DNA from: a virus | Length of the DNA: 40,888 nt | IMG/VR virus record: IMGVR_UViG_3300044615_000186 | Span: 1-40,888 of that record | Direction: 5' to 3' (one strand) | Shown: in pieces, positions 21,796-40,888 of the stretch | Numbering within the stretch: the stretch's first letter is position 1 | Layout: each line of letters opens with the position of its first letter | Notes under the pieces: model-generated | Told to the model about the DNA's origin: nothing | The model's database searches: none | What the model saw: the letters and a program-made list of their open reading frames with translations, nothing else | Translations under genes and position numbers: made by a program

Positions 21796-24700
21796 TACAA
21801 TACCTCACTTAAGAATACGGTCATTTCTGGACCATCAGAACTTCTTGAAAACTCAATATTATATACAACAAATCTACTTGCTGTATTTGATGCCATACTT
21901 ATTTCATTTTCTTTATAATCTAAAGTAACTATATCTCCAAGTTGTATTGTTGGTATTGAAAATATTTTAACACCAACAGATTTTCTTGGCTTAGAAGTTT
22001 TTTCAATCATCCACTTCATTAGTCTTGATGCCTCATCTTGTGACTGAATGTACGGTGTTTCTAGTGTAAAGTCTTTTTTGCCATAAGTCATCCTACTAAG
22101 TTTGATGTCCTGGTAGTCTTGCTTAAATTTGAAAGGATTTGAAATTAATTTGTCTGCAACAAACTGTGGATTTGACTCTGTGCTATTATTTTTAAAATAT
22201 TCGTCAACTGTTAAGTTGTTATTGGATTGCTGAGTAAAGGTAATTCCTTGAATTCTTAAATAGTTACCACCTGTCTCATCTAGGTTTAATGCGGTGTCTG
22301 TTGCGTTAAATATTAAAAACTCTGCACCGTAAGATCCTGCACGAAATCCAGAAACAACATAACCCTTTGTCTTATTAAAAGTTGGAGAAATTTTTGCAGT
22401 CAATGCTGGATATGCTTTATCATATTTAAAATTAAACGCTGCTGCTTCTCTCATTATGCTTCCAAACTCCTCAAAGTATATCTTATACTTTGGTGCTTCT
22501 GATGAACCAATACCAGATAGGTAGGTATTCTGTACTAAACCACTTATGGCATATTTTCTAAATGACTCATTTACATCTATATCTTGATCACCAAATACTG
22601 AGTTTACTGGTGCATCTAAAGAAAACGCTGTGTTCTGAGAATAGTTATTTGATAACGCATAAACATTTTCAAACATTGCTCTTGAAGAGCCTCTTGTAAA
22701 TAATGCAAGACTGTTGTATACTGGCAGAGGCTCTATGTCATCAACTGTTTTTATCATCTTTCCATTGATATATAAATAGAATCTACGCACATTTCCTATG
22801 TCTTCATACTCAACTGCTAAATCATATACCGTTGGATTTTCTTCAGCAAACATTCTTGATTGACCAGTAAACCTTCCATCGTCTACTGTAATTTTTGCAA
22901 GACCATCATACAAAACAATTGGCACGGCTTTTCCATTGTTTGATTTTATTTTATAAAAGAAAACATTGCTAACGCTTTGTCTATCTTCTTCTGACAAACT
23001 GTCTAAGCCAAGTGCAGAAATTTCAAAATAATACCCTACATTTGTAGACGTATTTAGCATTACTGCTATGCCAGCAGATCCGCCAGTAACGTTAATATTT
23101 TTATCTGGAGTAGATCCATTAACTACGTAAAGGTTAAACGCTCCGTTTGCAGTTTGTCCTGAGTCCTTACTGCTCTCTATCTTGCCAATAATTCTTAACC
23201 TTGTTCCAAAGTGCTTATACTTTGTATCTGGTAATGACTTATGAACATATGATATAAAATTTCTTGGTTTTTCTTTTGTTGTAAAGTTTGGACCAGTTAT
23301 AGAAAGCGCAGAAGCCTGAACAGAACCTGGCCTTGGCTGTGTGTTAGTTGTTATTTCACCAGCCATTACTGTAGACATAAAATTTTTAATTAGACCAGTT
23401 CTAGAAGATGTTCTTGAAAGTGCGTCAGAAGATATATTGGCATCTGTTGTCTTTCCTGCTGAGCCAAGCGTTGTTGTGGGCAGTGGGGTTTTCTTTTCAA
23501 ACATATATTCTGCAGCCATATAACAACCCTTGACATTATCATCAGACTTCCAATATTCAGATATTCCAGCAGGGTGTGCAACTACTGTAGTGCCAAATTG
23601 TCCACGACCATGCTTTACTACTGGACCATTTTGTAGTTTAATAACTCCAGACTGCTCAAAATATTTTGGTTCAGAATAAATTCTTACAAGACCAGTAGGA
23701 TATATTTTTCCATTAAATGGTAATTTAGAAAAATAATTTTGATAGTCTTCTGTAGAAGTTATCCATACATTTCCAAAACCAGTAACGTTATACTGAACTG
23801 CATCATATCGGATTATTTCTCCTTGCGAATAAAAGTAACCATTATATCTTGTAATCCAGTATGCTGCCTCACCAAGACTAAATGTATTATTTGTAACAAT
23901 GTTATTCTTGACAACTGGAACATCTGCAGAAAGATCAGAGTTAAGTGGAATTGCACTAAGCACATATGATGATTGTGTATTTACCTCATTATTAATCGAT
24001 TTTGTATTTTCTGTTCCAGATACTTCCCATAAAAGAGCAGGTTTGTATGTATAAATTCTTTCATCATCTAAAAGGCTTGCTTGTCTTATAGAGCCAACAG
24101 ACCTTTGTATGTGTCTGACAGTATAGTTAATTACACCGCCATTGTAGACATTGTTTGCTTGTGTGGAGACAGATATAATATTGGCAATCTTTGCTTTATC
24201 AGCAGTTTTATTTTTAATTTCTCTTTCTTCAAACAAGTCATTAGTTCCTTTTAGTTCAAAAGTAGTTGGTCTTTGATCTTTGGTTGGCATAATGTAGTCT
24301 TTGCTCATCATCACAAAGTTATTATATTCATCAAAGAACATTGCCGTTTGAGTTGATATTGCTAAGTCCTGCAAAATCTGTGCAACGCTTTTATCTGGAG
24401 CAACAAAGAAATATGGAATTATTATTTCTTTTTCATTTTCAACTCTTTTGAATGTATAGTTAGAAAACCCAATATGGTCTAGCAACAGGGAAACTGCCGA
24501 ACTGACAGAAACTTCTGTCATCAATATCTGAGGCGCTGTTATAGACTCTAGATACCAGTACAGATCTCGCAATGAAAGAGAGACGGTTTTACTCATAAGA
24601 TCTTGTTTTGGAAATGCATCTGAGTACAGTGTCTTTATTGGAACGTAGTAGTCCCAGCCAGCAACATCTACAATTACTTCATAAAATTTAAACTGAACAT

Positions 24701-26186: not shown

Positions 26187-26827
26187 TATACCTCTTCCAG
26201 ACTTATTGAGACATTCCAGTAGTCAAAACTACTTCCTCGTTTTTCAACAGAGTATGAAAAATCACTGATAAACATTTCAACAAGTTGGTTGTATTGTCCA
26301 AGGTGGTCGTACGGGTCTGGTGTTCCTTTAAAAATACCTTTTCTATCATATGCAAGAAATACCCAGAAAGAGCCTTTGTGTGAGTCGTACCACTCAAGCA
26401 TATCTGCTCCACCTGCTCCGCCATCTGTTGTATAAGACTTGTATGGAGATAGTCCAGTTACAACATCAAACGAAGGAACGTCTGCGTGAGATCTAGATGG
26501 AATCATGTTCCAACTTGTGCTTAATGTGAGTTTATCTGCAATATGATATGATCTCATACGGCCATTGATCATTCTTTCTCGCTTCTCAATTCTTTCTTGT
26601 GAAAATTCAATTGGCTGCCTATTATCGTCAGTAATCAACAAAAATTGATCTAGTAATGTTTGATCTTCAACGCTTTCTGGGTCAACACCAATTTCATAAC
26701 CATTTGGCACATACAATCCATTTTTAAGGGTGCCAGAATTTTCAGACCAAAGCATTCCGTTAGGCCTGTTGTATTTTTTACGACCACGTATATACGTTAC
26801 CCTAGGGTCTATCTCTTCATCGGCCAT
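26186..26827 (-). CDS. distal tail-like protein
   Basis: The 213-residue product follows the tape measure and overlaps its start by 11 bases. It has a basic start (VTYIRGRKKYNRPNGML) and a tail of mixed strands ending SFDYWNVSISLEEV. The size and position just after the tape measure fit the distal tail (Dit) protein that joins tube and baseplate, although no Dit signature is clear to me. GAGGAGTG precedes the ATG. Confidence 0.6.
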   Translation of the reverse strand: MADEEIDPRVTYIRGRKKYNRPNGMLWSENSGTLKNGLYVPNGYEIGVDPESVEDQTLLDQFLLITDDNRQPIEFSQERIEKRERMINGRMRSYHIADKLTLSTSWNMIPSRSHADVPSFDVVTGLSPYKSYTTDGGAGGADMLEWYDSHKGSFWVFLAYDRKGIFKGTPDPYDHLGQYNQLVEMFISDFSYSVEKRGSSFDYWNVSISLEEV

Positions 26828-29800
26828 TTAATGACACTCCTCTAATTCTTCTATCATCAACACGCTTAATAGTTGACATTACTGCCTGTGCAATATCGTT
26901 TGGATTTGCGTCTGTCTTAGCATTAACTGTTAATGTATATGTATTATTATACACTGTACCGCCAATTGAGTCACCATTATTAATCTTTCTCATATTGTCT
27001 ACTCCATATGAGTCTACTGCATACTTGCTCATAATAAATTCTCCTGGGGTTAGCATTGCTGGCACTGTATCTGTACCCTTTGCAAAACCACCAACAGCAA
27101 AGTACTTAGGTATTAGACCACCCATAGAGTAGCCCTTTCCTATTCCTTTAGGCATTGAGAACAGCGACTTTGGAGCGGCTGCTGCTTTCTTTTGTGCTGC
27201 TGCTTTTTCTGCTGCATCTCTAACAGCCTTCTCTTGTGCAAGCATTCCTGGTGTTGGCTTTAGTGCATTTTGAATTGCTGCTGCATTTTGCTGGTCATAC
27301 AAACTCTTTAGGTGAAGCCCTGGTGTTGTTCCAGCATTCTTTGTTACTTCTCTAACATTCATGTTTTGATTAAATAGCATCAAATTCTTTTTAGCATCTT
27401 GAGCAATTTTGTCTAACTCCTCTCTGTGCAAAAGAGAACTGTTATAGAAAGGATCTTTCTTTTGTATCTCTGCCAGGGTTGGCTTTGATGTTGGTGGTGG
27501 GGTTGGATCAGCATTACCCTTTTTTGTAGGTGTTGTGGCTGAATCTCCACCTGGACAGTTTCCTGGGAAACCACTTGATGGAACGTTTCTTCCTAACGAA
27601 GGACAGAAAACCAAGGCTTCTGGGTTTGGATTTCCTGAAGACTCTGCTCCTGGACAGTTGCCTGGAAAACCAACTGTTGGAACATTTCTGCCAAGTGACG
27701 GGCAGTATGTTAGTTCATTTCCTGGTCCTGGGATAGGAGTAGGATCTGCTGGTACTGGGTCTTCAAAGCCTCCTGCTGGTAATATAATATCTACCTTTTC
27801 ATTTTTATATGCATCAATAAGAGGCTGAATAATTTTTTCTGCATTGTCTATTGCTTGCTGAGACCTAGCATTGTTAACTCGTGCCTCATCAATTCTTTGT
27901 TGGTATTCTTCCCATTTTCTTCTAACCTTGTCAAGTTCCTTAATTTGATCTCTAAGAACTATGTTCTTTTTTCTGATTTCTTCTTCTGGCTTTTCAATAT
28001 CTTTTTCTTCTAAGTCAAAGATATAATCTTCTAAAGCCTTAATTTCTTGCTCTAAAACTTTTCTAGTTTTTCCACCTGATGTTACTTTTGATAGTTCATT
28101 TTCTCTAGCCTTTTCTAATGCTTCTCTTTCTTTTGTCACTGCATCTTCTGCTGCTTGTGCTCTCATTTCTTGAGCAGCCTTTGCTGCTGCTGCAATGTCT
28201 CCAGAAGTTAATGCCTCTGCAAGACTTAATTGACCCTTTTGCTGTTGCGAAATTGCAGCGTTAGCCTTTTCAACTTCGTCCAAGGCCTTAATTCTGTCGT
28301 CATATTTTTCATTAATTTTTTCTTCTTGCTTTTCAATTGCTCTTAATGCTGCTTCTTTGTCATCAATTTTATACTGAGCCTCATCAATTTTATCTTGTGC
28401 AGCGTCAATTGTTGCTTGCAAACCCTCTGTCTCTGCATCAAATTTTAATGTTAGTCTTTTTTCTTCAACGTCAACTCTCTCCATTGCTGTTGAAAAACCT
28501 TGATCAAATATCTTTTGCATTCCTTCAATAGAAACAGCATCAATCTGCAACTGAATTTTTTCTTTGTTTAATGCCTTCTTAAGAACATCCAAGAACCTTT
28601 GGTATCCTTCAGTTCCTGGTTTTACACTTGACAAGTTAATTAATGCTTTTTTAAGGTTTTCGCTTTGCATAATTGCATTAAGTTGCTCCTGTGTAAACAC
28701 ACCCATTACTTCGGTCAGTCTTTGCAAAAGTGCAACATTATCATCTAGCATTGTTTCTTCAGCCTGTAATGCTTCAAGAGCAAGGTAGTTTCTTTTTTCT
28801 GCAGTTGCTATTTTCCAAGCATCAGCAATCTGTTTTATTTGCTTATCATCTAAATCTTTATTTGCAATTGCTGCTGCAAAAGTTGCATCTGCTACTGCTT
28901 CTAGAGCAACAGACCCGTCAATGCCTGCTGCCTTTAGTCTACCTAATGCTGTAACCTGATTTCCAATTTGCTTAGCCATCTTTTCTTGGTCACTTACAAA
29001 CTCTCCAAGTTTGATTGATTGTAGTGCGTCTTGAATACTTTGAGCATTATCTTTTAATCCTGAAATGTTTCCATTTTCATCAAAGTTAAATAATTTATCT
29101 TTTTGTTCTTCATACTCTGCTGGATCCATACCTGTTATAAGATCAATTAGGTCTTCTCCCGCTCCCAGTTTTCTCATATCATTTTCAATACCGCTAAATA
29201 TTCCAATAGTCTTTTTTCCACCAAACAGTTTATTTAGTGTCTTAGATGATGCCATCCATCCTTCAGTAACCTTAATTTGATTTTTTCTTACATCTCTAAG
29301 TCTCTTGACCAAATCGTCCAGAGGAGAAGAGTCTACCTTGTCTTTGTCTCCAGTGCCAGGAACAACTCCAGTTGTCTTTTTGTCATCGACAATCTTTCCT
29401 TGTCTTCCAACAAGCCAGGCGTTTGCTTTTTTCTGAAGCCTTTTCTTTTGATTTGCTGCGCCACGACCCTTAAGTTGTGGAATTCCTTCTGAGGCAAGAT
29501 AGGCAGAGAGGACATTCTTGTCTCCAGCAGCGACAAAATCAACAACAACGCTCTTATTAATTGTCTTAGATGTTCCCACCAAGGTTGTCCACAACTTATT
29601 AAACTCGTCTGAAGTCATGTCTCCAGTTATTCCCAAATCAAGAAATGCTTGCTTTGTTAGTTCTTCGCCTTTTATACCCTTTAGTCTCTCAGTTATAGCA
29701 ACAACTTCTTTAACCTGAGATGCGCCATCATCATTAACATCAACGGTGATTCCATATTTTTGTTGCATATTTGAAAGAACAGATATAGCATTCATGTTTT

Positions 29801-32800
29801 TATCAAAATTCTTTGGATCTTTATTTAGAATATCCATAAAGATTGGAATATTTTGATCTGAGACTCCAGCCTTCATTAAAAGTTGCATAACTACGTTTGC
29901 ATCTTCAGCACCCTGAGTTTCAACTAAAATCTTAAATTTACTTTGTATTTCTTTATTATTTGCTAACTTTGTAACAGTTATAGGGTCAAGCGCTCCACTT
30001 GCAAACTGAAGTTGAAGCATTGCCCTAAAGTCTTCATCTTCAATATCCTTAAGTTCTTTCTTTGCCTCTTCTGCAAAAACCTTCATTGGTCCTTCTTTAT
30101 ACATTGCATCAATTGATGCGTTAATTGCATTTGTAAATACGTCTGGGCCAAATGCATCCTTCTGTGCAATAAGAAGATTTAAGGCTTCTGCATTTTTGGC
30201 ATTAAGTTTTACTAGTGCTGCTTCTCTTTCTCTTTCTATGCCTTGAATTTCTTTATCAGTTTTTGCCATAGAAACTTTGATGTCATACTGTTTGTTTAAA
30301 GAGTCTACGAGACCATTATTCATGGTTACCTGTTCTAGTCCAAGTTGAATTGCTGCTGATCCAAGTTTTTCATTTACCTGAGTTCTCTTGTTTTGATCAG
30401 ACATTCCAGCACGAACTGAGTTGGCCCCTGCTGCTGTCATTCCAACGCCTGCAACTGCGCCTATTCCAGTAAATCCTGTTAGGGCAGCAGTTAGACCTCC
30501 TGCTGCTGCAAGAATTCCTCCACCTATAACTTGTCCAACATTTGTAAATGTTGTTGTACTAACCGATTGCTCTAACGCAGTCTTAAAAAAGTCTGCCTGT
30601 CTTTGCATTGACTCCTTTTGAATTGCAAGAGTAATTTTTAATGGGTCTGATGCAAGGTTTTCACCATTTGGTCCAAGAAGTGTTGTAAGTTTTCCACTGA
30701 CAATTGCTGGTATTTCGTAACTCTTTAATTCCTCACCAAGGGCTGAAGATATACTCCGTGCTTGATCTGTTGTGATGATGCCCTGTACAATTGCGTATGC
30801 AAGACTGTTAGAAATGTTTGTTCCAATTTGCTGTATTCCTTGACCAGATGCTGCCTGCTTTTCAATATCTCCTAAAAGTGTTTTACCAAAATCGCTTTCA
30901 AGAACATTCTGGCCAAACTTTCTTTGTACTCCGCTTGCTCCAGTTAATGTATTTTGACGCTTTCTATCTGCTGCCTCTGTTGCACTAACTTTTCCAGTTA
31001 TCTCTGAAAGGTTTTGAAGTTTTTCAGATGTCATAGTCATTGACTGTGCAAGATCAATTCCTGCTTGTCTTGCTTTTTTAATACTTTGATTGAAGAAGTA
31101 TATTGCTCCAGCAATTGCTCCAAGTGCAACAACTGCAATACCTATACCGCTTGTCAACAAAGGCATAATCATTGAAAGAGCCATCATTGGCATCATTAGT
31201 TTTTGTGCTGCATCTCCTACAGCCCCAGGTATCATGGAAGCACCCATCATGACTCCAGAAGCAGCCATCATCTTGCCACCTGCACCCATTCCAGTTCCTG
31301 AATTTTTTCTTTCTGCTCTTCTATCTTTTATCTTTTGAGAAAGTGTTGACATTCTTGAAGATGGTGTTTGATTTTTAGCGGAGTCTGCTGCGCCAGACGT
31401 AATTACTGATGCTGGGTATCCTGACTTTTGTGCAAGAGCACTTTTCTTTTGCTGTCTTTCTAGTTGTCTTCTTAATGACTTTTGATTAGCATCAATTGGT
31501 CCCGTGCCATAAAGTGCTGTTCTTGATGCTGCAGCCTTTGACTGTGATCCCTGAACAGTTGCTGCCCCAAGTGCTTGCCCTGTTGCTTTTGCATCGTCAA
31601 TATATTCTCTTGCTCCAAGAATTAGTCCAGCGCCTGCATCCTGTCCTACCTTACGCATTTTTCGTGATGGAGATTGTGTTTGTAGTGCTAGTGCTGCTGC
31701 GTTTGGCAACTCTTCTGCAATAGCCTGAATAGCCTTTTGATTTCTTATTGTCAATTCTCTCAATTGCTTAGGCTGTCTTGCAAGAACCTTTTCTCTTGCT
31801 AATGCTCCCTGGCCAACTGCGTCTGCATACATTATAAAGTTCTTGCTTGTTCTTTTTTCAATCTCAGCATTTGTTCTTGAGTCAACAGCAATCTGTCTAA
31901 GAGCCTTGCCCTGAATAGATAACTGCTCTTCTGTTAATGCAACACCATTATTGATATTTGTCATAATGGATGTAATCTGTGCTTCTGTTGCTCCAGTTTT
32001 TACTAAATACTCTTGATACAACTTTCTATATCTTTCGGACTTCTTAAGGCTTTCAAGGATTGAGTTGTTTTCTGCACCAGTTTGTGGAGTCCATACCGCA
32101 CTATTCCATGCTGGAGACTTCATACCAGTCTTTGCGCCTGTCTTTACTCCCTTTTGTTCCTTTGAAACAGCAACAGTGTGTGATCTGTCTATCTGTGTAG
32201 CATTAGCAATCTGTGACTGCGTTGCGCCATACTGTTCCATTGTACGTCTTATCGCTTTTGCTGATGCTCTTGCAGGAGCCATTTCTGCTGCTGCAGCGAC
32301 TGCACCACGCTCTCTTCTTAGTTGATCTGCTGGGCTTCCTAGAGACTTAGGTGCAGCATATGCACCTCCGCCACCTACTCTTTTTTCAGACTTAGATGCA
32401 AACTCTTTGCCTAGATCTGCAACTCTTCTGCCTTGTTCTTGAGCAATTCTTCTAACTTCTTTAACAAACATCTTTGTGCTTATCTTTGTTTCTGATGCAA
32501 GATTTTGTAGTGCCTGAGCAATTATGTCATCAACTACTCCAATGCTTCCATTTACTTTTGCCTGAATTGCATTAATAGTTTGTGATCCTGCGGGAAGTTC
32601 ATAATCGCTGCCACCAAACTTTACGGATTTAGAACCAACAACTCCAGCGTTCTTGTAGCCAGGGATATTGTCTGCAATTAAACCCTGAACAAGTCCAGGA
32701 TACTTTTTAACAACTTCTGCAGATATAATTGCTTCGCCATTAGATGCCATGATTGGAACTGAGTCAGACTTAGGACCACCAGGACCAGAAATGATTCCGC

Positions 32801-34799
32801 CCTCTGCAAACTTCTTAGGAACTGCTCCAGGTCGTGCTGCGCCTGGCATTCCAAATGCTCTCTGTGCTGCCATTGCCCTTTGATACGCCAAAGCAAGTGC
32901 CCCCACTGCTGATGCCTCAGATGTAAATGTTTGCCGTAATCTTTGATGAACCTGATCAAGAGATGCTGCTACTGCAGATGCTTCTAGTTGTTCTTTAGTT
33001 AAATAGTTTGTCTGCTCTCCAAGAATCTGGGTAGAAGATCCTGCCTTCTGAAATCCACCTCTTAGCGTTGCAAATAGTTTAATTATATTTGCAATACCGT
33101 TAGCAAGCAAACCAAAAGACATAAGCGCAATTGGTCCAACTGCTCCAAGTGCTACAGTTAGTATAGTTATAAACCTTTTGCTACCGTCCCCAAGATCATT
33201 AAACTTATCTAGTATCTTTGCAGCAAATTCAACAATTGGTGTTAGTGCTTTTAAGAACTGCTCTCCAACTGGAGCAAGGGTTACCTTTAGGTCTTCAATT
33301 GCTTTTTTAAACTTGTATGTTGTTGTTTCTTCAATCTTTCCTAATTCTCGTTCAGACAAGATTGCTAGTTCTTCTGTTGTGTTCTTTGTAAGTTCTAGAA
33401 CTCTTGCTGCCTGTGTTCCTTCTGCTGTTACATTTTGGAACAGTGTTGAAAGACGAGAGAACTGGAACTTGCCGAACAACTGCTCGATTGCTCTTGCACG
33501 GTTTAGTGGATCTAGTGTATCAAGTGCTTTAGAGAATTCAACAACTGTTGACTTTACATCGCCCTTATTTGCTTCTACAATTCCCTTAATATTTATGCCA
33601 AGATCTGCAAGGAATCCTGCTGCTTTTTCAGATGGATTAATTAAAGAAGCAAGACCAGACTTGAGTGCGTTAGCACCTTCTGATGCATTAATTCCACCTT
33701 CTTTCATTGCTGTAAGGAAGAATGCAAGATCTTCTACATCTCCACCAAGTTGCTGAACAACTGGTCCAGCCTTTGGGATTGCAATAGTTAAATCTTCAAT
33801 TGATACTACAGTCTGGTTTTCTACTGCGTTAAGGAAGTCAATCTTTTTAGTTAGATCTTCTGCAGCAACACCAAAAGCGTTTGTAATTGATATTGTTGTC
33901 TCAAGTGCCTGCTCTTGTTCTACACCGCCAAGCACTGCAAGCCTTGTTGCTTGTGAAACTTGTGCAGTTAGTTCTGCTCCAACCTTACCTTGTGCTGCAG
34001 CATCTGCTGCCATCTTCATCGTCTCTTCTACTGCAACACCATACTTTGTGTATTCTTTTGCCAAAGTTTGGATTTGCTCAACCATCTCCTGTGTTTGTTC
34101 TTTGGTTGTGAACATGTCTCCATATACACGCTTAAATCTAATTGCCTGCTCTTCCATAGCCATGAATGTTTTTGCTGCTGCAGAGCCTAGCATTGCAAGT
34201 GGTACTGTAAAACCAACCATTAACTGGCGACCAGCCCACTGAGTATTCTTACCAAAGTTTAGGAGATTAGTAGATCCCTGCTTAAGAAGTTGATTTAAAA
34301 GTTGTTGTCTTTGTGCTGCCATGGCCGTTTGTGTGCCAAGGTTTTTCATATCAAGCGCTAGTGGTCTTACAGCAATTGACTGAATGGCTCCGTTTGCTCC
34401 ACGGCCCATCTTGATGTACTGGGTTTGTACATCCTTTACACGTTCACGGGCTACCTTATTTATTGTTTCAAACTCGGACTTAAATAATCTGCCAAAAGTT
34501 TTTGTGGCTGCGCCAGTATATCTGAAATACTCTCGTGAAGTTAATTTATTTTTTTCTAGTGCATCAGTAAAAGACTCTGTGCTTGACTTGACTGAGCGCA
34601 TTGATGCTTGGAATTTTCCAGTAGCATTTATACTATTCATCAAGTTCTGTGCTTGATTTGCTGAAACTGCTGATGCTGCTGCACCAGACTTTGACATCTG
34701 TGTATGGAAGGCTGATATTTGACGTTGCAGAAGTTTTAGACTTGCTAAAGCATCAGACGTATCAATATTTACATTAATATTGGATTGAACATCAGCCAT
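26817..34799 (-). CDS. tape measure protein, 2660 residues
   Basis: This very long protein fixes tail length and helps eject DNA. Features in order: helical start (SDALASLKLLQRQISAFHTQ), the typical tape measure core with MEEQAIRFKRVYGDM (about 220), a first hydrophobic stretch near 545-575, a Gly-rich FAEGGIISGPGG motif near 665, and a second long hydrophobic segment near 1195-1235. A Gly/Ala-rich hydrophobic stretch lies near 1430-1460. Coiled coils with DKIDEAQYKIDDKEAALRAI lie near 2130-2290, then a duplicated CPSLGRNVP motif and a C-terminal FAVGGFAKGTDTVPAMLTPG repeat of the first Gly-rich motif. By the common 0.15 nm per residue estimate, the tail is about 400 nm. AGAGGTG precedes the ATG. 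Confidence 0.93.
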   Translation of the reverse strand: MADVQSNINVNIDTSDALASLKLLQRQISAFHTQMSKSGAAASAVSANQAQNLMNSINATGKFQASMRSVKSSTESFTDALEKNKLTSREYFRYTGAATKTFGRLFKSEFETINKVARERVKDVQTQYIKMGRGANGAIQSIAVRPLALDMKNLGTQTAMAAQRQQLLNQLLKQGSTNLLNFGKNTQWAGRQLMVGFTVPLAMLGSAAAKTFMAMEEQAIRFKRVYGDMFTTKEQTQEMVEQIQTLAKEYTKYGVAVEETMKMAADAAAQGKVGAELTAQVSQATRLAVLGGVEQEQALETTISITNAFGVAAEDLTKKIDFLNAVENQTVVSIEDLTIAIPKAGPVVQQLGGDVEDLAFFLTAMKEGGINASEGANALKSGLASLINPSEKAAGFLADLGINIKGIVEANKGDVKSTVVEFSKALDTLDPLNRARAIEQLFGKFQFSRLSTLFQNVTAEGTQAARVLELTKNTTEELAILSERELGKIEETTTYKFKKAIEDLKVTLAPVGEQFLKALTPIVEFAAKILDKFNDLGDGSKRFITILTVALGAVGPIALMSFGLLANGIANIIKLFATLRGGFQKAGSSTQILGEQTNYLTKEQLEASAVAASLDQVHQRLRQTFTSEASAVGALALAYQRAMAAQRAFGMPGAARPGAVPKKFAEGGIISGPGGPKSDSVPIMASNGEAIISAEVVKKYPGLVQGLIADNIPGYKNAGVVGSKSVKFGGSDYELPAGSQTINAIQAKVNGSIGVVDDIIAQALQNLASETKISTKMFVKEVRRIAQEQGRRVADLGKEFASKSEKRVGGGGAYAAPKSLGSPADQLRRERGAVAAAAEMAPARASAKAIRRTMEQYGATQSQIANATQIDRSHTVAVSKEQKGVKTGAKTGMKSPAWNSAVWTPQTGAENNSILESLKKSERYRKLYQEYLVKTGATEAQITSIMTNINNGVALTEEQLSIQGKALRQIAVDSRTNAEIEKRTSKNFIMYADAVGQGALAREKVLARQPKQLRELTIRNQKAIQAIAEELPNAAALALQTQSPSRKMRKVGQDAGAGLILGAREYIDDAKATGQALGAATVQGSQSKAAASRTALYGTGPIDANQKSLRRQLERQQKKSALAQKSGYPASVITSGAADSAKNQTPSSRMSTLSQKIKDRRAERKNSGTGMGAGGKMMAASGVMMGASMIPGAVGDAAQKLMMPMMALSMIMPLLTSGIGIAVVALGAIAGAIYFFNQSIKKARQAGIDLAQSMTMTSEKLQNLSEITGKVSATEAADRKRQNTLTGASGVQRKFGQNVLESDFGKTLLGDIEKQAASGQGIQQIGTNISNSLAYAIVQGIITTDQARSISSALGEELKSYEIPAIVSGKLTTLLGPNGENLASDPLKITLAIQKESMQRQADFFKTALEQSVSTTTFTNVGQVIGGGILAAAGGLTAALTGFTGIGAVAGVGMTAAGANSVRAGMSDQNKRTQVNEKLGSAAIQLGLEQVTMNNGLVDSLNKQYDIKVSMAKTDKEIQGIEREREAALVKLNAKNAEALNLLIAQKDAFGPDVFTNAINASIDAMYKEGPMKVFAEEAKKELKDIEDEDFRAMLQLQFASGALDPITVTKLANNKEIQSKFKILVETQGAEDANVVMQLLMKAGVSDQNIPIFMDILNKDPKNFDKNMNAISVLSNMQQKYGITVDVNDDGASQVKEVVAITERLKGIKGEELTKQAFLDLGITGDMTSDEFNKLWTTLVGTSKTINKSVVVDFVAAGDKNVLSAYLASEGIPQLKGRGAANQKKRLQKKANAWLVGRQGKIVDDKKTTGVVPGTGDKDKVDSSPLDDLVKRLRDVRKNQIKVTEGWMASSKTLNKLFGGKKTIGIFSGIENDMRKLGAGEDLIDLITGMDPAEYEEQKDKLFNFDENGNISGLKDNAQSIQDALQSIKLGEFVSDQEKMAKQIGNQVTALGRLKAAGIDGSVALEAVADATFAAAIANKDLDDKQIKQIADAWKIATAEKRNYLALEALQAEETMLDDNVALLQRLTEVMGVFTQEQLNAIMQSENLKKALINLSSVKPGTEGYQRFLDVLKKALNKEKIQLQIDAVSIEGMQKIFDQGFSTAMERVDVEEKRLTLKFDAETEGLQATIDAAQDKIDEAQYKIDDKEAALRAIEKQEEKINEKYDDRIKALDEVEKANAAISQQQKGQLSLAEALTSGDIAAAAKAAQEMRAQAAEDAVTKEREALEKARENELSKVTSGGKTRKVLEQEIKALEDYIFDLEEKDIEKPEEEIRKKNIVLRDQIKELDKVRRKWEEYQQRIDEARVNNARSQQAIDNAEKIIQPLIDAYKNEKVDIILPAGGFEDPVPADPTPIPGPGNELTYCPSLGRNVPTVGFPGNCPGAESSGNPNPEALVFCPSLGRNVPSSGFPGNCPGGDSATTPTKKGNADPTPPPTSKPTLAEIQKKDPFYNSSLLHREELDKIAQDAKKNLMLFNQNMNVREVTKNAGTTPGLHLKSLYDQQNAAAIQNALKPTPGMLAQEKAVRDAAEKAAAQKKAAAAPKSLFSMPKGIGKGYSMGGLIPKYFAVGGFAKGTDTVPAMLTPGEFIMSKYAVDSYGVDNMRKINNGDSIGGTVYNNTYTLTVNAKTDANPNDIAQAVMSTIKRVDDRRIRGVSLNGR
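27549..27608 (-). repeat. second copy of CPSLGRNVP-type 20-residue repeat
   Basis: This 60-base unit encodes FCPSLGRNVPSSGFPGNCPG in the tape measure protein. Its sister copy lies 99 bases upstream in the gene (27648-27707). Both contain two cysteines and differ at only three residues. Confidence 0.9.
27648..27707 (-). repeat. first copy of CPSLGRNVP-type 20-residue repeat
   Basis: This unit encodes YCPSLGRNVPTVGFPGNCPG. The two units supply the only four cysteines in the 2660-residue tape measure protein. The nucleotide copies have diverged at several silent positions, so the duplication is not very recent. Confidence 0.9.
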
Positions 34800-34817
34800 C
34801 CATTAACACCTCTTTAT

Positions 34818-35141
34818 TTAGTTATTTACAAGGTTGCCAAGTAGTGAAGCGTCTGAAAGTCTAATTCCAGATGCCTCTTCGACGATCTTGTATACTGTTG
34901 GAAGGTCTAGATTTTCTTCTAGGGCTTCCTTGTCTTCCGCCAATTCTGGCTTGTATTGCTTCATAGCGATTTGAACACAATCGATAAGTAGGTCCATAGA
35001 CTTTTCGTTATCTTCTGCTACCTTTGCGATATCCTCAAACTTCTTCATAAATGGACGAAGTAGCGATATCTTTAGTGGTCTTACCTTGATCTTTGTTCCG
35101 TCGATCAGAGTTACTGTTTTTTCTTCAGTGGCGGTTGCCAT
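34818..35141 (-). CDS. tail assembly chaperone, short paralog
   Basis: The 107-residue product lies just before the tape measure gene, where siphophages encode the chaperones that coat the tape measure. Its core VTLIDGTKIKVRPLKISLL and NLDLPTVYKIVEEASGIRL aligns closely with the first half of the 226-residue protein upstream. It stops after the shared N-terminal domain. AAGGAGG lies seven bases before the ATG. I see no clear slippery sequence making a longer form, so it may replace the short product that other phages make from one frameshifted gene. Confidence 0.8.
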   Translation of the reverse strand: MATATEEKTVTLIDGTKIKVRPLKISLLRPFMKKFEDIAKVAEDNEKSMDLLIDCVQIAMKQYKPELAEDKEALEENLDLPTVYKIVEEASGIRLSDASLLGNLVNN

Positions 35142-35167
35142 TTATTCCTCCTTATAAGGTTTAGTCA

Positions 35168-35176
35168 ATTATACCA
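35168..35176 (-). promoter_or_regulatory. extended -10 promoter TGGTATAAT
   Basis: The minus strand reads TGG-TATAAT about 27 bases upstream of the short chaperone ATG, in the 54-base gap after the long chaperone gene. An AAGGAGG site separates it from the start. No -35 box is evident. Confidence 0.45.
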
Positions 35177-35195
35177 TAGCGCAGGCTTATTTTTT

Positions 35196-35876
35196 CTATT
35201 CGTATGATTCGTAATCTAGTCCCATGCCAATACCGAATCCAGCCATTTCTGCATTTTTGCCTTGAAGGGCCAGAATATCATTGCCGTCAGTTGCAGTTCC
35301 CTTACTAAAAACTCTCGCCTTCATATCTTCCCAAGCGTTTTTATTACCAGAGTTTTTATCTAAATCTACACCCTGCATAGCAGCAGCAAACTTTTTATCA
35401 CTATAGTCTAGTTCTCTTTTTATCTTAATTGTTGCAGTTAGTTCTGCCATTGACAAAGACTGTTCTAGTTCTTCATAGTCTTTCCATATACCAATGAGAA
35501 ATGCCTCTGCTTCAAGTTTTGCCAAGTCTAATGTGTCCCAGGATGCTCCGCTATCAACTGCCTGAGACTTTACAGTATCTTCAGATTTTTCATTAATCTT
35601 AATTCCTGCTGCAATATCTATTACCTCATATATAGTAGGAAGGTCTAAATTATCTTCTAACTCATCCACTGTCTTAATGTGTGGAGCATACTGTTGCATT
35701 GATATTAGTGCACAGTTAACTAACACAGATATTGATTCGTCATCTGTTGTAGCCTTTTTAATTGTTTCGAACTCATCTAAAAACTCTCTAAGATACTTTA
35801 TTTTGAGAGGGGATGCAGAAATGACAGTACCGTCTACTAAACTAAACTGTTTTTTATCATAAACTCTTGTTGCCAT
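35196..35876 (-). CDS. tail assembly chaperone, long paralog, leaderless-type start
   Basis: From ATG 35874-35876 the protein has 226 residues. The first 100 (FSLVDGTVISASPLKIKYLR, NLDLPTIYEVIDIAAGIKI) match the short chaperone. A C-terminal domain follows with LIGIWKDYEELEQSLSMAEL and an acidic end, like the T extension of lambda-type GT proteins. Here the two parts are in one continuous frame. No ribosome site precedes the ATG; TGG-TATACT ends six bases before it, right after the terminator at 35899-35924. An upstream start at 35906 would begin inside that terminator and is unlikely. Confidence 0.78.
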   Translation of the reverse strand: MATRVYDKKQFSLVDGTVISASPLKIKYLREFLDEFETIKKATTDDESISVLVNCALISMQQYAPHIKTVDELEDNLDLPTIYEVIDIAAGIKINEKSEDTVKSQAVDSGASWDTLDLAKLEAEAFLIGIWKDYEELEQSLSMAELTATIKIKRELDYSDKKFAAAMQGVDLDKNSGNKNAWEDMKARVFSKGTATDGNDILALQGKNAEMAGFGIGMGLDYESYE

Positions 35877-35882
35877 TATATA

Positions 35883-35891
35883 AGTATACCA
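35883..35891 (-). promoter_or_regulatory. extended -10 promoter TGGTATACT
   Basis: The minus strand reads TGG-TATACT, then TATATA and the ATG of the long chaperone. The six-base gap puts the transcript start close to the ATG. It lies directly after the major tail protein terminator, so the chaperone and tape measure genes could have their own transcript. Confidence 0.5.
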
Positions 35892-35898
35892 AACAGAA

Positions 35899-35924
35899 AG
35901 GCCCAACCCCGAAGGATTGAGCCT
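35899..35924 (-). terminator. rho-independent terminator after major tail protein
   Basis: On the minus strand AGGCTCAATCC pairs with GGGTTGGGCCT over 11 base pairs (two G-T pairs) around a TTCG tetraloop, followed by TTTCTGTTT. It lies about 18 bases after the major tail protein stop codon. The very stable tetraloop hairpin makes this one of the clearest terminators in the window. Confidence 0.9.
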
Positions 35925-35942
35925 CTCATATATTAAGTTGTA

Positions 35943-36602
35943 TTATGCTGCTGTTAGTGAACGATCTACGATCTTACCGTATGATGCGTCGTCATTTGGA
36001 AGAAGACGGAATGATACTTCAAACATTGAAGCCTCATCACGCTTTGCTGATACTGTAACATTCTCAATTGAGAGTGCACGGTATGCAACATAGATTCTTT
36101 CCTTTGGTGTTGAAGAAGAACCAGATCCTGGTCCTACTGCTACGAGACCACGCTCTAGTGGTACGTCACCAATATCTCCAGCAGACATCTTCAGAGTAGT
36201 TGCACCATTTGCGGTTGTCTTGTCTGTGTCATCTGCTGCAATAGCGACTAGAAGATTTTCTAGTGTTGCTTCTGCAAAGGCTGTGTTTAGATTAACTGTC
36301 ATACCCTGCTTGAATAAACGAGCAACGTCTAGAAGTTGATCTACTGCTACCTCACCGAAGTCTGGCTGGAAAGCAAGTTCCAAACCATTTGATGTGTATC
36401 CTACGTTTGTGTAGTTCTCATCATCAAGTGTCAGTGTTTCTCTGATCGATGTTACTGATTGTGAAAACGATGGGAGATCTAATGCTGCTTGAGCATCGGT
36501 GATCTTACCATCTTCGTCTAGTCCGATTGGACCTGCATCATGTGTAAATAGTGCTGCTGCACCCACGATGATGTTACTGCTTGAACCACGGCTATATGCC
36601 AT
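35943..36602 (-). CDS. major tail protein
   Basis: The 219-residue protein forms the tail tube. It is beta-rich with a Ser/Gly start (MAYSRGSSSNIIVGAAALFT) and FQPDFGEVAVDQLLDVARLF, and ends VSFRLLPNDDASYGKIVDRS. Its place after the tail terminator-like gene and before the chaperones and tape measure is the standard siphophage order. AAAGAGGTG precedes the ATG, a possible TATAAT lies upstream, and a strong terminator follows, consistent with high expression. Confidence 0.85.
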   Translation of the reverse strand: MAYSRGSSSNIIVGAAALFTHDAGPIGLDEDGKITDAQAALDLPSFSQSVTSIRETLTLDDENYTNVGYTSNGLELAFQPDFGEVAVDQLLDVARLFKQGMTVNLNTAFAEATLENLLVAIAADDTDKTTANGATTLKMSAGDIGDVPLERGLVAVGPGSGSSSTPKERIYVAYRALSIENVTVSAKRDEASMFEVSFRLLPNDDASYGKIVDRSLTAA

Positions 36603-36652
36603 ATATTCTCACCTCTTTCATTTTTATTAAAAGGGCTTGTTTCCTCGCTTTA

Positions 36653-36658
36653 ATTATA
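36653..36658 (-). promoter_or_regulatory. -10 candidate TATAAT before major tail protein
   Basis: The minus strand has ATG-TATAAT about 50 bases upstream of the major tail protein start, in a 67-base intergenic gap. The TG is adjacent rather than spaced by one base, so it is not a full extended -10. No -35 box is clear. Confidence 0.33.
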
Positions 36659-36669
36659 CATGCCATTTA

Positions 36670-37197
36670 TTATGGAGTTACTGGGTGCCAGTCGTAGTCT
36701 ATGATGATCTTATTACCCGCATAGGTACGGGCTGTACCAAAGTCTACAATATCTCTAGTTTCTTCTAGTTGGTATATCTTAAAGTTATGGAAGAAAATTG
36801 GCTTAGACTCTGTATCCCATTTACCTGTATTTGCTGCTGCCCAATCATTAATATCTTTTGCTGAGTCATCACCATTATCAAGTAGTTCGCTAACGAGTTG
36901 CTGAATGTGAACCATCTGCTCTGTTGGGCCCCAACCTTTCTCAGAATCGCCAGTCGCATAAAAATAATATAAAACCTGCTCACACTTGATGTATGGGAAA
37001 GGTGTTCTTCTCATTTTAAACATTCTGTCATAAACACCGAAAAGTCCATTTGACTGTGGAAATGTTGTTGTTAGATTTTCAATATCTGTTGGAAGTGTTG
37101 GGAAAAAGTATGTTGTTCCTGAATCAAAACGCTCATCTACTTTTGCACCAAGGTACTTATTTATTATTGATGGTGGATGGTGAATTGTTGCTGTCAT
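36670..37197 (-). CDS. tail terminator/completion-like protein
   Basis: The 175-residue product lies between the neck protein and the major tail protein. It has TYFFPTLPTDIENLTTTFPQ near residue 30 and a YIKCEQVLYYFYATGD strand region, ending in NKIIIDYDWHPVTP. Size and order fit the tail terminator that caps the tube at the head side. It overlaps the neck gene stop by one base. The assignment is positional; I see no unique signature. Confidence 0.62.
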   Translation of the reverse strand: MTATIHHPPSIINKYLGAKVDERFDSGTTYFFPTLPTDIENLTTTFPQSNGLFGVYDRMFKMRRTPFPYIKCEQVLYYFYATGDSEKGWGPTEQMVHIQQLVSELLDNGDDSAKDINDWAAANTGKWDTESKPIFFHNFKIYQLEETRDIVDFGTARTYAGNKIIIDYDWHPVTP

Positions 37198-37871
37198 TAT
37201 GCAACCACCCCTGCGTTAGCAATCCAGCGATACCCAGTTGACACTCCCTTAGATCTGCCAAGAGATTTGCCAGCATTCATGTCTCTTCTATAGACCTCTG
37301 GATTTTCAAGATACTTGGCAATGCCACTTACCCTTAAGAATGCTTGTGAAAAATATCTATTAAAAAACATGTCAAACACCTTTTCAAAACCACCTTCTAC
37401 TTGTGATCCTCCAGGATTATCAATCCTTACTGGACCTTTTGTGAATACAGTCTCATCGTTTTCATCAAATGCTAAAACCTCTGCAACCCTTGGTCTAATT
37501 GTAACTGGAATTCCTTCTTCCATAATTCTTGCCTTATCATAAAAAGGTGTTCGTGATCCATTCTTAATTGATGCTGACTGACGAAAGGATGACTTAAAGG
37601 ATAGTCCAAGGTTACTCGTTGTATATGAAATGTTGTACAACCTTGCCTTTGGGCTTCCTGTTTGATTCCACTCATATATGTGGTGAAGCATTTCTGGGTT
37701 TACCCTTGCATTTGAGTCTATAAACTCTTTCATCAACTCTACTGTTTCTAGCCCCACTGTCTTTAAGAATAAAGTTTTCCCCTTTTGAATGCCCTCTAAA
37801 AATCCTACTGAGTATTCCACAATATTATTCATTTCTTTTTTAAACTGATTAGAACTAAATACGGCTCTCAT
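37197..37871 (-). CDS. HK97 gp10-like neck protein
   Basis: The 224-residue protein has a helical start (FKKEMNNIVEYSVGFLEGIQ) and later beta segments (ARLYNISYTTSNLGLSFKSS). Then comes ARIMEEGIPVTIRPR, a pattern seen in gp10-family tail-completion proteins where an EEG(T/I)P segment precedes a loop. It ends with a basic tail. CAGGTG lies three bases before the ATG. It overlaps the head-closure gene by four bases. Confidence 0.7.
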   Translation of the reverse strand: MRAVFSSNQFKKEMNNIVEYSVGFLEGIQKGKTLFLKTVGLETVELMKEFIDSNARVNPEMLHHIYEWNQTGSPKARLYNISYTTSNLGLSFKSSFRQSASIKNGSRTPFYDKARIMEEGIPVTIRPRVAEVLAFDENDETVFTKGPVRIDNPGGSQVEGGFEKVFDMFFNRYFSQAFLRVSGIAKYLENPEVYRRDMNAGKSLGRSKGVSTGYRWIANAGVVA

Positions 37872-38317
37872 ACATCACCTGTTTGATTTTCTGATCTTCT
37901 AATAACGATCTTATAAGACTCTATAGTTCCAAACGGTCCTGTAAAAGGTTCGTAGGTTGCTATTTCAAATAAAGTTCCTCTTCCAGATCTAGGACCAGAG
38001 GTCTCCATATAAATAAGATTTCCTTCTTGATCCTTTATGTCTGTAATAAGTATGTTTGTTAGTGCATTTTTACTATCAAGTGATGATATTCTGATATCAG
38101 ACTTTGCTCTGCCAACAAGAATAGAGTGCTGCGTAATATTTACATTTGGCTTTACGTCTTCTTTAAAAGCAGATCCACCAGAGGTAAAACTGCAGGCAAA
38201 GATTCTGTCCAAAACCCATTGCTTTTTAATTGCTCCATATTGCCCTTGCTCAACTATTGGATGATATACAGATGCCTGCATTGGAAACATAAAATCTGGT
38301 GTCTCACAAACTGTCAT
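37868..38317 (-). CDS. head closure protein
   Basis: The 149-residue protein has beta strands typical of the SPP1 gp16-type stopper. Examples are ASVYHPIVEQGQYGAIKKQW, TQHSILVGRAKSDIRISSLD and LFEIATYEPFTGPFGTIESY. It sits between the adaptor and the neck protein, the usual position. GGGGTG precedes the ATG. It shares one base with the adaptor gene. Assignment is by size, strand pattern and order. Confidence 0.62.
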   Translation of the reverse strand: MTVCETPDFMFPMQASVYHPIVEQGQYGAIKKQWVLDRIFACSFTSGGSAFKEDVKPNVNITQHSILVGRAKSDIRISSLDSKNALTNILITDIKDQEGNLIYMETSGPRSGRGTLFEIATYEPFTGPFGTIESYKIVIRRSENQTGDV

Positions 38318-39213
38318 TACAACACCCCAATTTTTGTAATAGACTTTACATACTTAGAAAGTATCTTGTCTACGATTATATTTCCTGTTCCTTCGAAAAG
38401 ACCCTTGTCAAACTGAATTCTAAACTGATCTGTATTATAAGAAGAAATAAATCTCTTGTAGTAGTCTAACTTTCCACACTCAATGTCGTGAATTAGCATC
38501 TCTGTTGCTCTAACAATATCTGATGGTACTGTTGTATATCCATGCTCTACTGTGATCCTGTAGTCCCAAGTAATTCCAAATCCTCTATACACAAACTGTG
38601 GGTCTAAAGAGTCTGAGGATGCTGCTGGTAAAACCAGTGGTGCAGACTCTGCACGATTAATATTGTCTGTAGACTTTTCAACAATTGCTGTTTTGTCTGA
38701 TGTTACCTCAAACTGTCTATCTTCTACTAACTTATTGTTTTCATAAACACTCAAAATCTTTTTTACATCATCCCAGATAGGTAGGTAGTCTGATCCAGTT
38801 CCTGTAAAATTTAAAACCTTTTTTCTGTAATAGAATCCATCTGGAACTATTGAGTCAATGATTGCTCTTGCGATTTCTTCATTTAATGCATATGCTGCTA
38901 TGTCACTTGCCGTTGATGCTTTTGTTGCAGGGTCTACATATGGCCTAAATATCTCATATGTTTCGTCCTGCAAAATCTGCTCATTTGATGTTCCTGGGTC
39001 TGCGACTATTTCAACTCTATATGATGAGTCGTACTTTCCTGGTAGTAAAATTTCTAAAACTTCTGACGAAGATGAATCAGCAAATGTAGATGTGGATACT
39101 GAAAGATCCGCCATATCTGTTATAGTAACAGTTATATCTGAATTTGTTATTCCCGCAGGAATGACAAAATTAACAGGTATTTCTGCATATGGCGAAACTC
39201 TCAATATCTCCAT
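38317..39213 (-). CDS. head-tail adaptor with N-terminal beta domain
   Basis: The 298-residue protein has a beta-rich N-terminal domain (about 1-90: PVNFVIPAGITNSDITVTIT, KYDSSYRVEIVAD). A helical C-terminal part follows (from about 100, with ALNEEIARAIIDSIVPDGFY, and VRATEMLIHDIECGKLDYYK near 240) that fits the connector adaptor fold. It may be an adaptor fused to an Ig-like module. It lies after the VEAP-repeat gene with a six-base gap. Confidence 0.62.
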   Translation of the reverse strand: MEILRVSPYAEIPVNFVIPAGITNSDITVTITDMADLSVSTSTFADSSSSEVLEILLPGKYDSSYRVEIVADPGTSNEQILQDETYEIFRPYVDPATKASTASDIAAYALNEEIARAIIDSIVPDGFYYRKKVLNFTGTGSDYLPIWDDVKKILSVYENNKLVEDRQFEVTSDKTAIVEKSTDNINRAESAPLVLPAASSDSLDPQFVYRGFGITWDYRITVEHGYTTVPSDIVRATEMLIHDIECGKLDYYKRFISSYNTDQFRIQFDKGLFEGTGNIIVDKILSKYVKSITKIGVL

Positions 39214-39219
39214 CTTTAA

Positions 39220-39654
39220 TTAACCGAAAGCCTTCTTGACTTCTTCTGGTGTAGCAATGCGAACATGGCTACGAGTTAGCCACTTGTCTGCTTGTGCTTT
39301 TGTAACAATGTTGTATCCTCTAGAAATTGCACCAACTTCTTCCCAACGAACGCTCTTTGTTGAGTGAACTGCTACCTTTTCTGAAAGATCTACGTGTGAC
39401 TTAATTGTCTTGCTTGGGCCGTCTGCTGCCATTGATCCAATAGCGCCTGTTTCTGTAAATCCTAATGACTGAACTGGTTCTTCTGCTGCAGGTGCTTCGA
39501 CAACTGGTGCCTCAACTACTGGTGCTTCTACAACTGGCTCTGCTACTGGCTCTTCTACATGCTCTACTGGTGCCTCAACCACTGGGGCTTCGACATGTGC
39601 CTGCTCTTCTGCATTATCTGCTGAAAACGGATGATTGTAATTATTGTTTTCCAT
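39220..39654 (-). CDS. head-associated protein with VEAP repeats
   Basis: The 144-residue product has an acidic repeat region of PVVEAP and HVEEP units (about 18-60), then a compact C-terminal domain. It ends RGYNIVTKAQADKWLTRSHV and TPEEVKKAFG. The C-terminal motif recurs in small genes directly after capsid genes in other actinobacteriophages as far as I recall, but its role is unclear; head decoration or connector are options. AAGGAGG precedes the ATG. It has its own candidate promoter at 39673-39681 after a terminator. Confidence 0.6.
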   Translation of the reverse strand: MENNNYNHPFSADNAEEQAHVEAPVVEAPVEHVEEPVAEPVVEAPVVEAPVVEAPAAEEPVQSLGFTETGAIGSMAADGPSKTIKSHVDLSEKVAVHSTKSVRWEEVGAISRGYNIVTKAQADKWLTRSHVRIATPEEVKKAFG

Positions 39655-39672
39655 TGTATCCTCCTTGTTTGT

Positions 39673-39681
39673 ATTATATCA
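39673..39681 (-). promoter_or_regulatory. extended -10 promoter TGATATAAT
   Basis: The minus strand reads TGA-TATAAT, identical to the site at 2749-2757. It lies between the capsid terminator at 39694-39723 and the VEAP gene, whose ATG is 18 bases downstream with an AAGGAGG site between. The expected leader is about 12 bases. No -35 box is clear. Confidence 0.5.
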
Positions 39682-39693
39682 TTAAAGTATTAA

Positions 39694-39723
39694 GGGGGAC
39701 AGGAGAGTGAACTCCCGCCCCCC
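39694..39723 (-). terminator. hairpin terminator after major capsid protein
   Basis: GGGGG-x-C-x-GGAG pairs with CTCCCGCCCCC around a six-base loop, a long GC-rich stem. On the minus strand it is followed by TTAATACTTT, a modest T tract. It lies 21 bases after the capsid stop. It probably lowers read-through so that capsid mRNA is more abundant than downstream genes. Confidence 0.75.
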
Positions 39724-39744
39724 ATTAAAGGTACTGTTTACAGA

Positions 39745-40875
39745 TTATGAATCTGAAGCAGCGTCAGCGAATGCAATTGCATCCTCTTCTTCCCACTGAA
39801 TACCAAAGCGGACGAATACTGTGTACTCAATTGTGTCCTTCTTTGCTACGTACTCACGGTTTACTGTGATATCGCGCTGGAATCCCCATACACGGTTTGC
39901 AGGGAATGTCAAGTCGATATAGCCTGCTGGGTAGTAAGGAACTTCCTGAACTTCAATTCCGAGAACACGAGTTGTACGTGCTCCACCGAATGTCTGTCCG
40001 ATACCATCAAGGTATGACTGGCGGTTTGCCTGGGTTGATCCTGGCATCTGGCCTGCAAACGCTTCTGCAACTGCATCAGCAAGTGTACCGTTGTTCTTAA
40101 CGATTCCACCGAATGCATCTGTACCTGCGTAGAACTTAAGATTGTTCTTAAGTGCACGGTACTTACGTGGCATTGCGTTGATGATGCCCTGCATTACATC
40201 AGGTGTCCAAGCATTATCTGCTACGGTTACTACTGACTCATGTGCATCTCCATCTTTAGCCTTCTTTACGAAGCCTGGCATGATTGACAAGAATGCTCCT
40301 GTAGAACCATCACCGTTGATTGCGAGATCTTCGATATCGTTTGCGAATGCATTGGTCATTAGACGTACCAAGTGATCTTCTAGAGCGTCACCTTCGATAC
40401 CATCTTCCAATGATTCTGCTGTTACTTCCCAATCAAGACGAATCTTCTTGGTAGTAAGTTCGACCTTGGTGAAAGTTGCACCTGTGTTTGTGTATGTACC
40501 AACTGCTTGCGCTGCTGCACGAATTACACGCTCACCGACGTTTACCTTCTCAAGTTCCATAGAATTGGCTCTCATTGTTACACGACGGCCATCCTTTGCT
40601 AATACTGTTGCATCCCAAACATAGTCGATAAAACGACGTGCCTGCTCAGGGCGCAAAATTCCAGAAGCCGCTGAACCACTAGGGTTAACAGCGTTTGCTC
40701 CGCTTGTAGATCCAAGAGTTGCTGTTGGAATGTTTCCAAGTGTATCTGCACCTGGGTTACTTACTCCACCAATTCCACCTGATGCGAAAGCACCTTGACC
40801 CTGGTAAAGTCCTGGTGTTGTTCCACCTAGATCTCCCGCAGCGCCTGGCTGGTTTTTGATTATTTCTTCTGACAT
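39745..40875 (-). CDS. major capsid protein, HK97 fold
   Basis: The 376-residue capsid protein has a Gly/Ser/Ala-rich N-terminal region (about 1-75). The HK97-like core follows: FIDYVWDATVLAKDGRRVTM (P-domain start), DWEVTAESLEDGIEGDALED and VRLMTNAFANDIEDLAINGD (long helix). The A-domain has NNLKFYAGTDAFGGIVKNNG and VLGIEVQEVPYYPAGYIDLT. It ends in FVRFGIQWEEEDAIAFADAA. A perfect AGGAGGTGA lies just before the ATG at 40873-40875. A hairpin terminator follows. It is the first gene in the window in transcription order; portal and protease genes should lie beyond the right edge. Confidence 0.92.
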   Translation of the reverse strand: MSEEIIKNQPGAAGDLGGTTPGLYQGQGAFASGGIGGVSNPGADTLGNIPTATLGSTSGANAVNPSGSAASGILRPEQARRFIDYVWDATVLAKDGRRVTMRANSMELEKVNVGERVIRAAAQAVGTYTNTGATFTKVELTTKKIRLDWEVTAESLEDGIEGDALEDHLVRLMTNAFANDIEDLAINGDGSTGAFLSIMPGFVKKAKDGDAHESVVTVADNAWTPDVMQGIINAMPRKYRALKNNLKFYAGTDAFGGIVKNNGTLADAVAEAFAGQMPGSTQANRQSYLDGIGQTFGGARTTRVLGIEVQEVPYYPAGYIDLTFPANRVWGFQRDITVNREYVAKKDTIEYTVFVRFGIQWEEEDAIAFADAASDS

Positions 40876-40888
40876 ATTGTCACCTCCT

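Follow-up and report, generated by a model that had tools for sequence, protein, structure and literature searches.

A predicted terminator–promoter junction with a leaderless start between the tail tube and tail chaperone genes of a phage related to Streptomyces and Rhodococcus phages

Tail genes and the elements of the junction

The window, i.e., the whole stretch of 40,888 nucleotides analyzed here (IMG/VR virus record IMGVR_UViG_3300044615_000186), carries on its minus strand homologs of the G and T tail chaperone domains between the genes for the tail tube and the tape measure protein, as judged from PHROG matches and tblastn to annotated chaperones. The genes and signals of this region are as follows.

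35943..36602 (−): gene for the major tail (tube) protein, 219 aa; match to PHROG 2175 (an Ig-domain protein), E 6.7e-32
35896..35927 (−): predicted terminator hairpin, 14 pairs, cUUCGg tetraloop; from scans, folding, and clade conservation
35891..35899 (−): U tract TTTCTGTTT belonging to the terminator; the final T doubles as the first base of the extended −10 element; from the sequence
35883..35891 (−): extended −10 promoter element TGG-TATACT; from motif counts and TG[GA]TATACT in 65/65 distinct two-G loci (defined below)
35876 (−): predicted transcription start at the A of ATG (leaderless mRNA); from the fixed 6-nt spacing and the absence of a Shine–Dalgarno site
35196..35876 (−): tail assembly chaperone fusion gene, 226 aa; PHROG 10504 and PHROG 10474 on one protein
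35168..35176 (−): extended −10 element TGGTATAAT upstream of the second chaperone gene; TGNTATAMT in 60/60
35147..35152 (−): Shine–Dalgarno site AGGAGG of the second chaperone gene; 60/60 distinct sequences
34818..35141 (−): G-only chaperone paralogue, 107 aa; PHROG 10504 only, E 2.3e-20
26817..34799 (−): tape measure protein gene, 2660 aa; position as in annotated Streptomyces phages

Among the matches listed, the major tail protein shared 45–46% identity with proteins annotated as major tail proteins in Streptomyces phages, e.g., in EGole. The chaperone fusion protein consists of a G-like N-terminal part (residues 1–107) and a T-like C-terminal part (residues 130–218) in a single frame; in Streptomyces phages the two corresponding PHROG parts match two separate annotated frames. 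An alignment backs its start codon: in EGole and Annadreamy the single-G chaperones begin with MATxVY at the same place. The G-only paralogue had 44% identity with the fusion protein over the aligned part. A nucleotide search with the fusion gene against named phages gave no match. It is the kinship with Streptomyces and Rhodococcus phages that points to an actinobacterium as the host.

All elements of the junction (hairpin, T tract, −10 element, and ATG) lie on the minus strand, as was confirmed by rechecking the letters. The hairpin is formed by the arms GAGAGGCTCAATCC and GGGTTGGGCCTTTC around a TTCG loop (35927–35896); the loop is closed by a C–G pair and is the C(UUCG)G tetraloop, and 7 of the 14 pairs are G–C. 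An earlier note on this DNA had described an 11-pair TTCG hairpin after the major tail protein gene; the hairpin is there, the 11 pairs being the inner part of the 14-pair stem. The couplet likewise lies in the range given for it (35883–35924), except that the hairpin begins 3 bases outside. The fold of 35885–35945 has an energy of −24.7 kcal/mol and a z of −5.1, with none of 200 shuffles as low. When the minus strand of the 40.9-kb window was screened for stems of 14 or more unbroken pairs, including 7 or more G–C pairs, around a loop of 3–8 nt, this hairpin was the sole hit; 40 dinucleotide shuffles, which fell short of the window length by no more than 200 bases, yielded none. A generic terminator scan of 22000–40888 showed no enrichment overall (10 found, 11.6 expected from shuffles), and the stem at 35927–35896 was by far the longest in its list. 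An Rfam search of the whole window gave no families at the gathering score. The U tract TTTCTGTTT follows the hairpin at once, which is the arrangement of an intrinsic (Rho-independent) terminator; the tract is interrupted, so termination may be partial. From these features we infer an intrinsic terminator at which the transcript of the tube gene stops.

On the same strand the tract TTTCTGTTT is followed by TGG (35891–35889), TATACT (35888–35883), TATATA, and the ATG at 35876. The earlier note had read a T tract, TGG-TATACT, and the ATG of the next gene in this order; the letters are confirmed, and the intervening TATATA is exactly 6 nt long. The element TGGTATACT (35891–35883) adjoins the tract without a gap, and since the last T of the tract is also the first base of the extended −10, terminator and promoter overlap. 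TGN directly before TANNNT, as here in TGG-TATACT, is the form of an extended −10 promoter of the sigma-70 type. Spacers of 16, 17, and 18 nt would place a −35 element at GGGGTT, CGGGGT, and TCGGGG, respectively, all within the hairpin; a −35 was rejected for the clade of the window also because the hairpin sequences vary between subgroups.

TGGTATAMT occurred 4 times in the window against 0.68 expected. TGNTATAMT occurred 9 times against 4.25 expected, a number reached by 3 of 100 shuffles, which is a mild enrichment by number alone. All nine sites were on the coding strand, and six were within 60 nt upstream of a gene start (P 1.4e-6, a value that concerns position and for which the 36 starts and the limit of 60 nt were chosen after the sites had been seen). 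The generic promoter scan of 22000–40888 was not enriched (52 found, 49.0 expected from shuffles), and neither was TATAMT at 4–8 nt before any ATG in the window (7 found, 5.5 expected), so that the latter motif proves nothing without conservation. As neither generic scan, for terminators or for promoters, was enriched, the case rests on the strength of the site and on its conservation.

A start 7 nt past TATACT would fall on the A of the ATG, which places the predicted 5′ end at 35876; the 5′ end proposed earlier near this position is thus well supported as a prediction. Both the spacing and the absence of a Shine–Dalgarno site are those of leaderless (TA-led) genes. According to PMC3160421, leaderless genes make up more than 20% of genes in Actinobacteria, with the signature TANNNT about 12 nt before the start. 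The window resembles them in the TANNNT at about 12 nt and in having no Shine–Dalgarno site; the genes described there are host genes, whereas here a phage virion assembly gene is interlocked with a terminator (PMC3160421). We infer that an extended −10 element without a −35 gives a leaderless mRNA for the fusion gene.

Conservation of the junction among related phages

Homologous loci were gathered from IMG/VR by the major tail protein (best 80 loci), by the G-only protein (best 80 more, many from the same contigs), by a Rhodococcus phage protein (1), and by a family alignment (best 80, more distant). The analysis covered 254 sequences (253 loci and the window), with both genes present in 246. 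T was in the frame of G and accompanied by a second G copy in all 152 two-G loci, window included, and in the −1 frame in all 87 single-G loci with a T match; seven of the 246 belonged to neither class (L008, L072, L073, L209, L225, L226, and L237), being short contigs with the T part missing or cut. Loci that agreed both in the intergenic sequence and over the first 300 bases of the chaperone gene were counted once, which left 142 distinct loci: 65 two-G, 71 single-G, and 6 fragments.

In the two-G class all 33 distinct intergenic sequences folded (−19.0 to −25.4 kcal/mol, z −3.3 to −6.2) while using 18 different hairpin sequences. A compensatory change of the stem was found between CCCAGCCC/GGGCTGGG and CCCAACCC/GGGTTGGG, and a further two-sided one between GCCCAGAC/GTCTGGGC and GCCCAGG/CCTGGGC. 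The hairpin is kept with altered stems, which supports an RNA structure. The −10 element was TGGTATACT in 63 distinct loci and TGATATACT in 2, and TG[GA]TATACT stood exactly 6 nt before the ATG in 65/65 despite intergenic lengths from 63 to 75. This box at a fixed distance supports a promoter; the loci share ancestry and are not independent, so that its conservation partly reflects descent. The longest Shine–Dalgarno match was GGT (63 distinct loci) or TGA (2). One contig-end fragment (L072) had the upstream element, but GTG and other letters in place of ATG.

The hairpin was also found in 65 of the 67 distinct intergenic sequences of single-G loci (z below −2). The two failures, L090 (Dorin) and L174, arose because a doubtful start within the hairpin had been used to trim the intergenic stretch, which also explains why these two appear among the four of 71 distinct single-G loci lacking a −10-like box (L090, L174, L182, and L224). 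In the other 67 the box ended 17–42 nt before the start, preceded by TGN in 59. Of the 71, 68 had at least AAGG, AGGA, or GGAGG within the 20 nt that precede the start; one more had TAAG only.

Fifteen named phages, of at least 138 matching records, were inspected, and all had the hairpin at the same place: 11 Streptomyces phages and the Rhodococcus phages Dorin, Francesca, Trina, and NiceHouse. In most of the 15 it was followed by a −10 box, a leader, and a Shine–Dalgarno site. The Streptomyces phages of Stanwilliamsviridae (EGole, Annadreamy, Coruscant, Wofford, Stigma, Circinus, and others) share with the window the gene order and the hairpin directly 3′ of the tail protein stop codon (11/11 inspected). 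Their −10-like box (e.g., TGATATAAT, TGCTATAAT, or TGGTAAACT) stands 22–34 nt before the chaperone start (11/11), in a gap of 94–120 nt with a leader and a Shine–Dalgarno site, whereas the gap in the window is 66 nt and leaderless. In place of the in-frame fusion and second G of the window, a single G gene is annotated in them, and T lies in a different frame. The occurrence of hairpin, box, and Shine–Dalgarno site across the relatives suggests that the terminator-then-promoter arrangement is old in the family; the abutting leaderless form seems to be derived.

A similar state was found in Dorin, Francesca, and the IMG/VR contig L174, where a candidate promoter consists of TTGACT in the hairpin loop, a 17-nt spacer, and TAGTAT, followed by 7 nt and ATG, with no Shine–Dalgarno site. 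Unlike the window, these have a −35 in the hairpin loop and a single G gene. Trina and NiceHouse, relatives of Dorin and Francesca, have leadered chaperone genes, which argues for a separate origin; thus, Dorin, Francesca, and L174 (two near-identical phages and one contig only) seem to have reached this state on their own. The annotated chaperone start codon of Dorin and Francesca (L090:1277 and L335:1716) lies inside the terminator stem, and the true start is likely the ATG 27 nt downstream. This is a warning to annotators that chaperone starts may be misplaced inside a terminator, as in these two phages.

Conservation over a wide phage family thus lends good support to the terminator-then-promoter reading of the earlier note. 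The alternative that fares best, which we regard as improbable, is that the hairpin terminates only part of the transcripts, or serves in RNA processing or 3′-end stabilization, within one long operon in which read-through is dominant and TATACT minor. The interrupted U tract fits a partial terminator, and hairpins behind abundant structural genes can protect mRNA 3′ ends. A read-through mRNA, however, would leave the fusion gene with no Shine–Dalgarno site, whereas all distinct two-G loci keep the −10 at its 6-nt spacing, and a −10-like box follows the hairpin in nearly all distinct single-G loci too (67/71). Still less probable is that the string TGGTATACTTATATAATG is kept for another reason than a sigma-70-type promoter, such as a phage-specific regulator or a translation enhancer. 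The stretch from TGG to ATG is indeed almost invariant, beyond the minimal need of a −10 element, but the core TGNTATAMT recurs before other genes at varied distances from their starts, together with leaders and Shine–Dalgarno sites, as expected of a promoter rather than of a context signal at start codons. A chance hairpin beside a chance −10 in an AT-rich intergenic gap, although the generic scans yield no more sites than shuffles, is refuted by conservation with changed stems across the family and by the lack of such a hairpin in the 40 window shuffles, and can practically be dismissed.

Chaperone duplication and the supply of G and GT

The two classes of loci differ in how a GT product could arise. 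The frameshifted G/GT layout, with one G gene and T in another frame, was absent from the window and from all two-G loci. In related single-G phages T is in the −1 frame, and GT seems to be made there by ribosomal frameshifting; in Stigma, Dorin, Francesca, and NiceHouse the annotation of the chaperone gene joins two pieces. The leaderless promoter coincided with the two-G/fusion layout in all 65 distinct two-G loci. The G-only gene is leadered: TGNTATAMT 25–27 nt before the ATG and AGGAGG were present in 60/60 distinct sequences.

A tree was built from 86 G domains, thinned from 158, over 111 columns, in which the G copies of the window itself are represented by the identical sequences of L096 and L094. 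The G parts of the fusions (39 rows) and the G-only copies (3 rows) formed sister clades (99/90) within the single-G proteins, and these two clades adjoined L244 (98/97). This topology suggests one chaperone duplication in the clade, within the limits set by long branches and few columns.

Our joint explanation, which we hold with good though not full confidence, combines an intrinsic terminator and an interlocked extended −10, a leaderless mRNA for the G-T fusion, and a second promoter that adds G-only protein. The hairpin would end the mRNA of the major tail protein. The extended −10 without a −35, overlapping the T tract, would start a transcript at the A of the ATG of the fusion gene, and the fusion would be translated from this leaderless mRNA. 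Some 700 bases further on, a second promoter, whose transcript would carry a leader and a strong Shine–Dalgarno site, would add extra G-only chaperone, and transcripts from both promoters would run on into the tape measure gene. With a separate terminator and promoters, the tube protein could be in large excess, and G could exceed GT without a frameshift. Uncoupling of the high-copy tube protein from the low-copy chaperone and tape measure proteins, proposed in the earlier note, fits this predicted anatomy. Nothing was seen that indicates conditional control, which its word "switch" would imply; it had also overlooked the implied leaderless mRNA, the G-T fusion and the G-only gene with a −10 of its own, and two further places where a hairpin and a promoter meet.

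The known system for comparison is phage lambda, where a −1 frameshift gives G and GT at 30:1, a ratio described as crucial for tail assembly (PMC5009743). As here, the G-like and G-T-like products of lambda (gpG and gpGT) are encoded between the tube and tape measure genes; the 30:1 ratio there comes from one gene and a −1 frameshift, whereas the window has two genes with separate start signals (PMC5009743). Judging from the layout of these signals, initiation and not frameshifting probably sets the G:GT ratio in the two-G clade.

A bolder version of this scheme, to which we give slightly less than an even chance, is that the −1 frameshift has been replaced by duplication and initiation control: a leaderless promoter in the shadow of the terminator would give little GT, and the promoter with a strong Shine–Dalgarno site would give much G. 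Single-molecule work on the E. coli polymerase describes recycling after termination by sliding and re-initiation (PMC6978380). By analogy, a terminated polymerase could slide into the abutting promoter, which would link the supply of GT to transcription of the tube gene.

As regulation, the junction belongs to a familiar type, here in an arrangement that is unusually tight and leaderless; more surprising is the chaperone duplication linked to it. Among the matches listed, no literature title or abstract opening described the junction or separate paralogous G and GT genes, which does not establish that they are unpublished. The clade is a natural experiment, in which one duplication coincides with the loss of the G/T frame break and with a shift of initiation from the leadered to the leaderless type, and it tests whether tail assembly needs the G:GT ratio itself rather than frameshifting as such. 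Precise 5′ and 3′ RNA ends are also predicted for phages that have no transcriptome among the literature matches listed.

Further promoter-like sites and hairpins in the window

A second leaderless-type promoter was found at 19651–19636 on the minus strand (TGGTATAATTATAGT-ATG). The arrangement of TCTGGTATAATT, 5 nt, and the ATG at 19636 was invariant in 38/38 distinct upstream sequences; these came from the best 80 homologous loci, among which protein identity went as low as 56%. In the window this site overlaps the end of the previous gene (CTG GTA TAA), where synonymous codons could serve.

The lowest-energy hairpin of the minus strand (39723–39694) follows the major capsid gene, the stop codon of which is at 39747–39745. 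It is followed by TGATATAAT (39681–39673), AAGGAGG, and the next ATG, i.e., a leadered couplet at 39723–39654 (−); its T tract is weak, and the generic terminator scan did not flag it. A third strong hairpin, 2801–2772 (−), comes after the gene at 4251–2815 and runs into a T6 tract, with TGATATAAT next at 2757–2749, before the gene at 472–2403. A gene for a 117-aa protein (16736, −) has TATAAT 5 nt before its ATG and is a possible further leaderless start.
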